Origin: Acidobacteriota bacterium
Lineage (GTDB): Bacteria; Acidobacteriota; Terriglobia; Terriglobales; Acidobacteriaceae
Assembly (NCBI GenBank): GCA_013285705.1
Contig: JABDHA010000046.1
Coordinates: forward strand, 1-33,892
DNA length: 33,892 bases
Reading direction: 5' to 3'
Shown: positions 26,187 to 30,503 of the stretch, piece after piece
Numbering within the stretch: position 1 is the stretch's first letter
How the letters are laid out: every line of letters begins with the position of its first letter
Notes under the pieces: generated by a model
What the model was told of the DNA's origin: nothing
The model's input: only the letters and a program-made list of their open reading frames with translations
Databases searched by the model: none
Made by a program: the position numbers and the translations under genes

Positions 26187-27752
26187 CTAACAAGTCTCCT
26201 GCGGAAAAAACAGGATGAAGACGGTTCCATGGTTATTGGAGTTCATTGAGCTTCGAATTCTCATTGATCCACCGTTCTTTTGAACGAGATCGCGAGTGAC
26301 CCACAGTCCCAGTCCGGTGCCGCCAATGCCTTTGGTCGTAAAGAACGGCTCGAACATCCGTGCTACCGTTGCCTGGTCCATCCCGGTCCCACTATCCGCG
26401 ATGATCAGCCGAACGCCGTCTATACCAGTCTTCGAATGCTTAGTCCGTCGGCAACGAAAGTAAAGGACTCCTCCCAGCTTCATTGCATCGATAGAGTTGG
26501 AAGCAATATTTAGAACAATCTGACGGATTTCGCCTTCATGGCAATGCAGACGCTCGGCACATGTTCCGATCTTTGCGGTAATCAATGAATTTCGCAGTCG
26601 TGCTCGATAGAGAGCAACCACCGATTCAAAAAGATCCCTTAGATTCAGGGCAGTGGGTTTACTGCTTTGCCGATGGAATCGCAACGTATGTGTGGTGATC
26701 TGTGAGACGCGGGACAACTCATCCTGGGCGGTTTCCACGAGTTGTTTCAGCTCTGGAGTGCTCGCTTGCAGATTGATCAGGTAGAGAAGGTTTGTTACTG
26801 CGGCCAAAGGGTTATTGATTTCATGCGCAATCGAACTCGCCAGACGCCCCACCGACGCCAGTTTTTCGCTTTGCAACAACGCACGTTCGGCAATTTTTTG
26901 CTTTGAGATATTACGTACGATCGCGGAAAAAGCAACGAGAGTCCCTGGCGCTTCCATATGCGGAGTCAACTTGATGGAAATCTCGATTTCTGAACCGTTT
27001 CTATGCCGGCTGATGGTCTCCCATGAAAACTCACGCCCCGTCATGAGAGTACTGATGGCGGCTTCAAATATTTCAGCTTCTCTTTCGGAGGAAATAAGTG
27101 TCCAGAGCGGGACGCCTACGGCCTCGGGAGAAGAGTATCCAAACATGTCAGACGCGCCCGGGTTCCAGCTCCTCACGCTTCCGTCCACTTGAACCGTGAT
27201 GATGGCGTCCGATGAGTGAAGGATGACCTCTGCAAGCTGTTCCGCTTCTTTCCGCGAACGCAATAATTCCTTCTCAAAGAGACGGCGCTCAGTCGCGTTG
27301 AACAAAACGACTCGGATGTGAATTGGGTTGCCGGATTGATACTCTAAGGAAAAATTAGCCAGGACGGGAATGCGGCGGCTATCGACCCGCAAGTCTAAAG
27401 CGATTTCGCCTCGCGTACCACTCAAGAGAAGCGGCGGCAACACCTGGCTGTCATAGAAGATCGCGCCCGCAGAAGACAGAAGCTTCCGAAAGTTGAGACC
27501 GGCCTCCTGGCCCTTCGAAAGCCCAGCGAGATGCAGAAAGCCGGCGTTTGCGCTAAGGATAGATCCATCCATGTCCAGCACAAGATAACCGCAGGGTGCG
27601 TTTTCGAAGAGGTCTCTATAGTGCGCCAGGTCAGACGATGCCGACTGACCTAGATGAAGCTTCGAATCGCGTCCCTGACCAGCCCCGGCGAGCTCAGGTG
27701 AGGACAATGACCCGTCGCATCCATCACTACCAGTTGGCTTTTCGGAAGGCAT
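26187..27752 (-). CDS. PAS-PAS sensor histidine kinase, overlapping the RsbQ-like gene
   Basis: About 521 residues, soluble, no membrane helix. PAS 1 begins at YRDLFENAPCGYLVLD. PAS 2 (about 165-285) has ILHSSDAIITVQVDGSV and EISIKLTPHMEAPG. The HisKA helix carries the phospho-acceptor H310 in SSIAHEINNPLAAVTNL, and the HATPase_c domain has the N box NIASNSIDAMKL, DSGTGMD and TKGIGGTGLGLWV. No receiver domain and no response-regulator gene are adjacent. The start is uncertain: 27803, 27752 (used here) or a TTG at 27707. All three lie inside the 3' end of the hydrolase gene, giving 58-154 nt of overlap in another frame. The overlap and the RsbQ context suggest PAS 1 senses a product or ligand of the hydrolase. 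Confidence 0.88.
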   Translation of the reverse strand: MPSEKPTGSDGCDGSLSSPELAGAGQGRDSKLHLGQSASSDLAHYRDLFENAPCGYLVLDMDGSILSANAGFLHLAGLSKGQEAGLNFRKLLSSAGAIFYDSQVLPPLLLSGTRGEIALDLRVDSRRIPVLANFSLEYQSGNPIHIRVVLFNATERRLFEKELLRSRKEAEQLAEVILHSSDAIITVQVDGSVRSWNPGASDMFGYSSPEAVGVPLWTLISSEREAEIFEAAISTLMTGREFSWETISRHRNGSEIEISIKLTPHMEAPGTLVAFSAIVRNISKQKIAERALLQSEKLASVGRLASSIAHEINNPLAAVTNLLYLINLQASTPELKQLVETAQDELSRVSQITTHTLRFHRQSSKPTALNLRDLFESVVALYRARLRNSLITAKIGTCAERLHCHEGEIRQIVLNIASNSIDAMKLGGVLYFRCRRTKHSKTGIDGVRLIIADSGTGMDQATVARMFEPFFTTKGIGGTGLGLWVTRDLVQKNGGSMRIRSSMNSNNHGTVFILFFPQETC

Positions 27753-28438
27753 TGATGAACATATTGTCCCACGGTAGCAGGAGCAATCGCATCCTCGGCG
27801 CACTGCAGGATAAGCGTGCGCGTGTTCAACTTCGCAAGGTCAGCACGATTGTCCGAAAGGAACGTGACACGGGCAAAGTGCTGGGCGAAAATCGGATCGG
27901 TTTTGCAGAAGCTGGCTTCCAGTTCCGCCGCCAATTCGGGCCGGTCGGCGTTTCCCATGATGATTGGCGCCATCATCGCCGACCATCCAGAGTGATTGTT
28001 ATCTAGCATTTCCAGTAGATCTTCGATGTCGGAGCGCTCAAAACCTCCCACATACTGGCCGTCATTGATGTAGCTGGGCGACGGCCCAATCATGACTATG
28101 CTTTCAAACAGCTCCGGTCGCTCAATGGCCGCCAGGGCCCCGATCATTGAACTCACTGAGTGTCCAACGAAGATTACGTGTTCGAGCTTCAACTCATCAA
28201 TGATTTCGATGACGTCTGTTGCATACCCGCTCAGGGTGCTGTACCGGGTTCGACTGAATGCGGACGGGTCCGAGAGTCCTGAACCCACGTAGTCGAACAA
28301 CACGACCTTATGGTCGCCCTCAAAACTGGGGACGACAGCGCGCCACATGTTCTGATCGCATCCGTATCCGTGCGCGAACATCAGCGTCTTGGGGCCGTTT
28401 CCACTGATCTTGACGTTGTTGCGTAGGACGGATGACAT
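27650..28438 (-). CDS. rsbQ: RsbQ-like alpha/beta hydrolase
   Basis: 262 residues, close in length to Bacillus RsbQ (269). Many segments match it: MFAHGYGCDQNMWRAV, VVLFDYVGSGLSD, FVGHSVSSMIGALAAIERPE, MIGPSPSYIND, LILQCAEDAIAPATVGQYVH and ATGHCPHLS. The catalytic triad is S94, D216 and H244. RsbQ is needed with the PAS phosphatase RsbP for energy-stress signalling and is a relative of the plant D14/KAI2 receptors; it is thought to act on a hydrophobic small molecule. Here its gene directly precedes and overlaps a PAS histidine kinase, which would replace RsbP as the partner. AAGG lies before the ATG. A 15-bp dyad about 65 bp upstream (28503-28517) may control the pair. The symbol reflects similarity, not proven function. 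Confidence 0.87.
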   Translation of the reverse strand: MSSVLRNNVKISGNGPKTLMFAHGYGCDQNMWRAVVPSFEGDHKVVLFDYVGSGLSDPSAFSRTRYSTLSGYATDVIEIIDELKLEHVIFVGHSVSSMIGALAAIERPELFESIVMIGPSPSYINDGQYVGGFERSDIEDLLEMLDNNHSGWSAMMAPIIMGNADRPELAAELEASFCKTDPIFAQHFARVTFLSDNRADLAKLNTRTLILQCAEDAIAPATVGQYVHQCLPKSQLVVMDATGHCPHLSSPGLVRDAIRSFI

Positions 28439-28502
28439 AGAACCTTTCGAGCGTTTGCGAATTGGTTGATCTACAGAGGTAGTAGACGCTTTTCTGAGCT
28501 TA

Positions 28503-28517
28503 TTGCATCAGATGCAA
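28503..28517. promoter_or_regulatory. Perfect 15-bp dyad TTGCATCAGATGCAA upstream of rsbQ
   Basis: TTGCATC and GATGCAA are exact inverse copies around a central A. The site lies about 65 bp upstream of the rsbQ start, in the 177-nt gap after the SDR gene, so it fits an operator or promoter element of the rsbQ-kinase unit. Its size is what MarR- or HxlR-type dimers usually bind, but no such regulator is seen nearby. Confidence 0.5.
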
Positions 28518-29597: not shown

Positions 29598-30503
29598 CTA
29601 TGGCCCTTTGCCCTGGAACAGCCTGGTGGCGTAGTTCAAGTTGTTGATGTTGGACTTAGTTTTGAAGTCCATATTGCCGATTGCGGTCATGTTGTGCGCG
29701 AACTGCGCTATCTCTGTGTTGAATTGAACCCCGATGTCTTCCAGATTGCGTGCTTCTGAATAGACGTCCTGCGGCCCGTGTACGTGCTCATGCACCTCAT
29801 TGACCGCGATCTTCTGCAGGTCATTGTGGTCGAGAATTGGGTCGTGCATGTCAAACCAGCGCACGTCGGCGCGAGCGAGCTTCACTTTCTCTTCCGGCAG
29901 CATAGCGGCGAACTTTGTGGGAAATTCTCGAACGTAGGTGGAACGACTGGCCTCGGTGCTCGGAGGAAGTCCGGCCGTCTTAGCTACCCAATCGTCGTCG
30001 GCGAAGAGGCCATTTATCTGAATGCGCGTGACGACAAGGCCGCCACTCTGCGCGATGGGAGGATTATGGCGACGAACCATATCGACCCACCAACGTGTCG
30101 CCGGATCGGTCTGTGCGCGGTCGTTCCAGGCGGCCCAAAGTCTCATGGATATTTCAGTGCGCTCTGCGAGAGAACCATGACGCATGAACTCGGCCAGCTG
30201 GTGGGTGGCAGATCTGGTCTTGGTGAAATTCGCAGCGTTCTTCTGGAACTGGTTGAGAATGTTTTGACGAGCCGCCTGCTGCTCTTCCGGCGAAAGCGGA
30301 GTGTCTAGCACGCTGGCATCAAGGACGCGCAGATCTTCAAGGTCCTCAGTTGTGAGCACATTGTCACCCGCGCTGCTGACAACGTTTGGCGGCTGGTTTG
30401 TTGCGTTGGTTCCCTGAGCCAAGATCGGAACGCCCAGAGGTGCCATGAGCAGGAGCATAGGTAACCAGTTCCGTGAGCGGCTTCGGCTGTGAGAGCTGTT
30501 CAT
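29598..30503 (-). CDS. Exported hypothetical protein
   Basis: 301 residues with a signal peptide (a basic start rich in Ser/Arg, then WLPMLLLMAPLGVPILAQ, cleavage near residue 30). The mature protein is mostly helical and charged, with a middle WWVDMVRRHNPPIA segment, a KFAAMLPEEKVKLARADVRWFDMHDP stretch broken into short acidic blocks, and HEHVHGPQDVY near the end. The HEHVHG cluster looks as if it could bind a metal, but it does not fit a known HExxH pattern. I do not recognise the family. GGGGAGG lies just before the ATG. It is followed by the SDR gene after 70 nt on the same strand, perhaps in one transcript. Confidence 0.72.
   Translation of the reverse strand: MNSSHSRSRSRNWLPMLLLMAPLGVPILAQGTNATNQPPNVVSSAGDNVLTTEDLEDLRVLDASVLDTPLSPEEQQAARQNILNQFQKNAANFTKTRSATHQLAEFMRHGSLAERTEISMRLWAAWNDRAQTDPATRWWVDMVRRHNPPIAQSGGLVVTRIQINGLFADDDWVAKTAGLPPSTEASRSTYVREFPTKFAAMLPEEKVKLARADVRWFDMHDPILDHNDLQKIAVNEVHEHVHGPQDVYSEARNLEDIGVQFNTEIAQFAHNMTAIGNMDFKTKSNINNLNYATRLFQGKGP

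Follow-up and report, generated by a model that had tools for sequence, protein, structure and literature searches.

We found that the window, a stretch of 33,892 nt from a member of the Acidobacteriaceae, encodes on its minus strand an RsbQ-family hydrolase whose gene is directly followed, and overlapped, by that of a PAS histidine kinase. With a probability of roughly 0.8, we read the two genes as one RsbQ-PAS sensing module with a kinase output, in which the kinase is translated from a start inside the hydrolase gene. The gene identities, the class-defining PAS residues, the conserved adjacency, and the conservation of the internal start together with synonymous constraint are established by the comparisons presented below. 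The really unusual feature of the pair is the long conserved overlap, which the preliminary description of this DNA had given as a nucleotide range only.

The hydrolase, the kinase and their surroundings

The upstream gene (27650-28438, minus strand) is an open reading frame of 262 aa. When its product was compared with the PDB using phmmer, the best match was RsbQ (1wom, E=1.5e-95, 323 bits); an RsbQ-like protein (268 bits) and the plant proteins KAI2 (about 211 bits) and D14 (about 190 bits) ranked lower, and generic esterases trailed at about 50 bits (51). Alignment to RsbQ placed the catalytic triad at S94 (GHS), D216 (AEDAIAP) and H244 (GHCPH). Both the RsbQ-like character and the Ser-Asp-His triad claimed in the preliminary description were thus borne out, and a check for grouping with generic hydrolases returned the RsbQ/KAI2 grouping instead. 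These matches support placing this alpha/beta hydrolase in the RsbQ/KAI2 group and not among generic hydrolases. Pfam and NCBIfam give the hydrolase and the kinase generic names only, with every equivalog score far under its cut-off. That the protein is a metabolic esterase adjoining the kinase by chance is very improbable: its generic fold (Pfam Abhydrolase) would suit such an enzyme, but it matches the signalling hydrolases RsbQ, KAI2 and D14 best, with a wide score gap down to enzymes, and the pairing persists in different phyla and with different output types.

The downstream gene (26187-27752, minus strand) encodes a protein of 521 aa from an ATG at 27752, a start assigned by comparison with relatives; the mechanical open reading frame spans 26187-27803 on the same strand and begins at a GTG at 27803. 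A domain search returned the architecture PAS-PAS-HisKA-HATPase_c, which confirms the PAS-PAS histidine kinase of the preliminary description and sets the output class. In the AlphaFold model, residues 1-38 are disordered and are followed by PAS1, a 27-residue linking helix (153-179) and PAS2; in a fold search, the modelled PAS1-helix-PAS2 segment resembled tandem-PAS sensors, FixL and DosP among them. No response regulator lies next to the window's kinase, as had been claimed, and the kinase is an orphan. The absence of an adjacent regulator is common among relatives; at least one Edaphobacter-type locus (L119) does have a receiver-only regulator after the kinase.

PAS1 (approximate bounds 27290-27596, minus strand) is the putative docking domain for the hydrolase. 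RsbP-type PAS domains are distinguished by nine residues (C10, L13, L48, Q53, F55, C56, Y59, E72 and P86) and by the lack of a DIT motif, and the substitution F55A abolishes RsbQ binding (Nadezhdin 2011, PMC3183031). Counting positions gap-free from the hPCG motif and in an alignment of 94 partners, we found the signature residues C10, G11, L13, L48, F55, P62, E72 and P86 in PAS1. It departs from the signature at Q53 (Ala) and Y59 (Gln), both clade-wide and shared by 27/37 and 26/37 acidobacterial relatives, respectively; the C56 position holds a Tyr, which is common in the class. Of the four null-phenotype residues, all but Y59 are retained. A DIT motif was sought at the end of PAS1 and was absent, the domain closing with ...FNATERR. 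The presence of most class-marking residues and the lack of DIT support the assignment of PAS1 as an RsbP-type PAS domain. Heme binding through the position used by FixL and Dos is unlikely, because the residue matching their heme-binding His is a Tyr in PAS1. A search for a solved structure of an RsbP-type PAS domain found none.

In the published definition, an RsbQ-PAS module consists of a hydrolase encoded directly upstream of a protein in which an RsbP-type PAS domain is the most N-terminal, with a PP2C (PPM) phosphatase, a histidine kinase (in Gram-negatives) or a GGDEF domain as output; 5 of the 45 published proteins carry extra PAS domains (PMC3183031). In the window the hydrolase gene is immediately upstream, the PAS domain is the most N-terminal and the output class is a known one, and by these sequence features the pair is a known RsbQ-PAS module with a published output class. 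The preliminary description was right that hydrolase-PAS pairs with varied outputs are known, three output classes having been published, but its view of the kinase-output pair as distinct fails, as both the kinase output and the extra PAS domain are already in that paper. Its proposal of a small-molecule sensing unit is supported by analogy with RsbQ-RsbP. The same paper mentions neither Acidobacteria nor an overlap, and a search for RsbQ together with Acidobacteria found no paper with both terms in the literature collection covered.

An ADOP-family permease gene lies 88 nt downstream of the kinase on the same strand (26098 versus 26187), where the preliminary description had placed an ABC permease; its location stands, its membership of the unit does not. 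A three-gene operon of hydrolase, kinase and ADOP permease that senses and exports a small molecule would fit the shared strand and the short gap. We consider it highly improbable, as the window's permease, epimerase (upstream), M24 peptidase and metH genes are found near the pair in 0/20 relatives, and genomes of the genus encode 10-19 ADOP proteins each at the threshold used, an abundance from which such adjacency is expected. Because of this lack of synteny and the number of paralogs, the permease is, judged from these comparisons, an incidental neighbour outside the module. Elsewhere in the window, the product of 29598-30503 (minus strand) is a protein of 301 aa whose N-terminus is signal-like and which matches nothing in Pfam.

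The perfect 15-bp dyad noted earlier upstream of the hydrolase gene is present and partly conserved. It lies at 28503-28517 (minus strand, TTGCATCTGATGCAA), 64 nt upstream of the hydrolase start, and comprises 7-bp arms around one centre base (TTGCATCAGATGCAA). About 0.1 such short-spacer dyads are expected by chance in the 177-nt intergenic region (a hand estimate), so that by its size alone it exceeds chance only mildly, although its partial conservation strengthens the case somewhat. Two Granulicella copies (L003 and L004) have the related dyads GTGCATCTTATGCAC and CTGCATCACATGCAC at -75/-76, in one of which the outer pair switches from T-A to G-C, and TTGCATC half-sites occur in three further loci (L086, L087 and L090); neither dyad nor half-site was found in the closest relative (L083). 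We regard the dyad as a candidate local operator. A regulon-wide operator was set aside: in the 4.47-Mb assembly, which is incomplete (59%), the dyad has a single copy, with no others at up to one mismatch or as TTGCATNNNATGCAA.

The start of the kinase gene

Within the hydrolase gene, the kinase frame contains three candidate starts, a GTG at -154, an ATG at -103 and a TTG at -58 relative to the end of the hydrolase gene. These match the overlap of 58-154 nt given in the preliminary description, a range that comparison with relatives resolves to the ATG at 27752, 103 nt inside the hydrolase gene. The overlap (27650-27752, minus strand) covers hydrolase codons 229.3-262 plus the stop and kinase codons 1-34, and contains the codon of the catalytic His244. 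In an alignment of about 110 hydrolases, the ATG (27750-27752, minus strand) straddles codons 229 and 230 (CAA TGC), taking its A from the end of the former and its TG from the beginning of the latter; it is out of frame in the hydrolase and so forces Cys230.

At the homologous hydrolase codon, 17 distinct sequences from the acidobacterial clade have an ATG or GTG, and their kinase frame stays open as far as the hydrolase stop; every open-frame relative in the clade carries one at this site, and the overlaps of the relatives measure 103-133 nt. Residue 230 is Cys in these 17 sequences, with Trp only in L100. At loci that lack the overlap it is H (28), N (24), S (9), A (8), Q (7), E (4), V (2), R (1) or C (2), the two Cys cases being a single locus fetched twice (L005/L085), from a relative in which the kinase frame is closed and the start is now at -4. 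In two other relatives with a closed frame (L088 and L101), Cys230 has also been lost. Three distinct sequences (L007/L092, L008/L109 and L111) offer no alternative ATG, GTG or TTG before PAS1, and 7/17 overlap sequences have no start upstream of the conserved NTG. The 34 kinase residues encoded by the overlap are predicted by AlphaFold to be disordered (pLDDT <50 for residues 1-38).

In some members, the window included, a GTG or ATG at -154 or the TTG at -58 could still serve as a start. As a common start, GTG -154 was rejected on the seven sequences just mentioned (L086, L087, L089, L090, L091, L108 and L111), in which, upstream of -103, either the frame is closed or a start is lacking; the -154 site follows from the conserved Q-C of RsbQ proteins. 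TTG -58 was rejected as well, being produced by CAY-TGY in the GHC motif and absent wherever CAC encodes the His. A programmed frameshift that would fuse hydrolase and kinase was likewise discarded, the conserved element being a start codon; inspection of the aligned codons revealed no conserved slippery heptamer. The hydrolase had earlier been described as fused by overlap to the kinase, a wording that does not hold for two separate reading frames.

Synonymous sites in the same region are constrained. Fourfold-site identity within the clade is about 0.3 over codons 1-205 and 0.72 over codons 221-230. Synonymous sites are frozen at GTGGGACAATAT (hydrolase codons 223-226; 27761-27772, minus strand), the probable kinase initiation region: G224 is GGA in 17/17 sequences and V223 is GTG in 16/17, and codons elsewhere in these genes are mixed. 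On Fitch counts, which remove shared ancestry from the estimate by counting on the tree, the synonymous rate over codons 220-262 is 0.69 of that of the gene body (p=3.4e-5, from a test on few sites (24) whose p-values treat sites as independent), and the constraint is significant separately for codons 220-230, 231-250 and 251-262. The relative synonymous rate is 1.16, 1.13 and 1.03 in the control clades Microvirga, Actinoplanes and Pontibacter, where the partner gene either begins close to the hydrolase stop or encodes a different protein. The constraint is thus restricted to the overlap clade; it sets in just upstream of the kinase start and is strongest in the frozen stretch GTGGGANAATAT.

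This stretch could include a -10-like sequence, and the peak of constraint within it would also fit a promoter or RNA element for the kinase in place of a translation start region. We consider such an element quite unlikely, as the constraint runs on through codons 231-250, consistent with coding, and the NTG is retained even when the hydrolase residue turns from Cys to Trp. Scans for sigma-70 promoters and terminators found nothing beyond shuffled background. Conserved GTGGGANAATAT is, from its position and conservation, probably part of the kinase initiation region. The GGA core of GTGGGACAATAT sits 14 nt before the kinase start, a long spacing (13-14 nt). The anti-SD duplex reaches -7.3 kcal/mol in 8/17 sequences, in which GGAG is present, and is weak in the remaining ones (-3.9 to -4.2 kcal/mol); the window has GGA only, and its value of -3.9 kcal/mol is near background.

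Individual long or nested same-strand overlaps exist, for example comS in srfA and Thermus rpmH/rnpA. A survey of 338 genomes judged all 715 co-directional overlaps of >60 nt to be misannotations, the longest accepted real one being the 56 nt of holD-rimI (Palleja 2008, PMC2478687); later work repeats this view and finds phase 2, the phase of the window's overlap, rarer among long overlaps (PMC10666635, PMC3887535). This record would favour an artefact of start prediction, in which the true start is downstream, for example at TTG -58 or at some non-canonical codon, with a frame left open by codon composition. Synonymous codon shuffling indeed leaves the frame open in 43% of trials on average, and starts at -4, -1 or slightly downstream are seen in homologues from outside the clade. 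We nonetheless hold an artefact to be unlikely, in view of the NTG kept at a single site with a forced Cys or Trp, the three sequences without another possible start before PAS1, and the synonymous constraint that begins just upstream of the start in the overlap clade only. Together, these sequence comparisons support a real long co-directional overlap of hydrolase and kinase genes, whose start codon is kept at a cost to the hydrolase sequence.

Distribution and history of the pair

A hydrolase of this kind is encoded in 26/398 genomes of the family and, phylum-wide, in 15/396, and it is missing from the three other examined members of the genus; its distribution is therefore patchy. When the same 398 family genomes were searched with PAS1, 26 of the 28 matches lay directly behind an RsbQ-like hydrolase, so that the co-occurrence expected in related genomes was indeed found. 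One of the two exceptions (G270) has no hydrolase upstream in the stretch read. The other (G399) has undergone a natural deletion of the 5' two thirds of the hydrolase gene and keeps the 3' fragment with its GTG start and the kinase, as would be expected if the retained DNA is the 5' end of the kinase gene. Broken hydrolase genes were seen in two genomes (L162/L173 in G399:C16 and L113/L174 in G329:C5), with breakpoints at a shared SFCRMDP motif at about residue 180; one keeps the 3' part and the kinase, the other the 5' part and no kinase.

At 80 loci from many phyla, the partner is usually a PAS histidine kinase or a PAS-GAF-SpoIIE phosphatase, and the family survey also finds PAS-GGDEF partners. 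In three Acidobacteriales MAGs (L011, L012 and L015), the partners are PAS-PAS-HisKA proteins that end before any HATPase_c; they may be truncated kinases, phosphotransfer-only proteins or assembly frameshifts. Two RsbQ-like hydrolases of the same family (L104 and L105) have no adjacent PAS partner, their next genes encoding a DUF4440 protein and a nucleoside hydrolase. Ten loci from the Hymenobacteraceae genera Pontibacter, Rufibacter, Adhaeribacter and Sabulibacter (L039:5871-6320, L048, L055, L058, L060:5850-6272, L062, L065, L066, L067 and L072) encode a conserved 113-150-aa protein 21-84 nt downstream of an RsbQ-like hydrolase on the same strand. This protein has no Pfam match and no similarity to PAS domains, and its AlphaFold model (pLDDT 88) matches SpoIIAA/RsbS-type STAS proteins (1h4y, E=8e-5). 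The model suggests a fourth, PAS-free type of partner, an anti-anti-sigma-like protein that may be paired directly with the hydrolase.

The members with the overlap form one clade (FastTree support 0.88), within which L085, L088 and L101 have lost the overlap: their frame is closed, and their kinases start at -4 or +22. L105, on a long branch and with no kinase, also falls inside this clade. Homologues outside it start at -4, -1 or slightly downstream. Because two other Acidobacteriota (L176 and L177) have partners that begin immediately at the hydrolase stop, in a phase identical to that of the overlap, the simplest history is probably that of a 1- or 4-nt overlap from which the start shifted upstream in frame. 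Granulicella mallensis X5P3 carries two close copies of the pair (L003/L084 and L004/L108), both of which have the internal start and some form of the upstream dyad, and is a handy system for testing paralogues.

A proposed mechanism and its relation to known systems

Ligand sensing, contact between the hydrolase and PAS1, control of the kinase and translational coupling are the parts of the module that we infer. A small molecule would enter the hydrolase pocket and be bound or turned over there. Two models have been published for RsbQ, with the hydrolase as supplier of a product (model 1) or as a receptor itself (model 2), and, by analogy with the genetics of B. subtilis, the hydrolase would then touch the F-alpha helix of PAS1 (PMC3183031). 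The signal may run from PAS1 along the linking helix and via PAS2 into the HisKA/HATPase core; this core would phosphorylate a response regulator encoded elsewhere, unlinked to the pair. The kinase would be translated from the out-of-frame ATG or GTG 103-133 nt before the hydrolase stop, such that the 3' end of the hydrolase gene would double as code for the disordered N-terminal tail of the kinase and the overlap would tie kinase synthesis to the hydrolase message. It is likely that this overlap of >100 nt dates back far enough to span the family, that it fixes the Cys or Trp of the hydrolase, and that it links the amounts of receptor and kinase or their co-translational assembly. Genes paired by a short overlap frequently code for subunits of the same complex (PMC10666635), a tendency that, by analogy, fits a receptor-kinase pair.

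The overlap offers a test case for ribosome initiation inside a gene that is being translated in another frame, and ligand and output can be tested in culturable strains of Granulicella and Edaphobacter that carry one or two copies. The module is a bacterial cousin of the plant karrikin and strigolactone receptors, whose natural ligands are largely unknown. Like KAI2 and D14 (190-211 bits), the hydrolase belongs to a set of homologous receptor hydrolases that signal via protein partners; the plant partners are F-box and repressor proteins, whereas that in the window is a PAS kinase. The pair resembles RsbQ-RsbP of Bacillus subtilis in having the hydrolase first and then an RsbP-type PAS domain as the first domain of its partner, with F55 and no DIT (PMC3183031), and differs from it in its output, a histidine kinase in place of PP2C, in a second PAS domain before the output and in the Gln at Y59. 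With the Gram-negative RsbQ-PAS-histidine kinase modules (PMC3183031, Fig. 2) it shares partner order and output class, but, unlike those modules as published, it has its kinase start within the hydrolase gene, 103 nt from the end. The closest parallel for the overlap is holD-rimI of Enterobacteria (PMC2478687), a co-directional overlap that is likewise conserved and supported by comparison of orthologues. That overlap spans 32-56 nt, whereas the one described here spans 103-133 nt and has a start codon that constrains the receptor protein; of single origin, clade-wide and measurably costly to the upstream protein, it is a supported counter-example to the rule that co-directional overlaps of >60 nt are misannotations.
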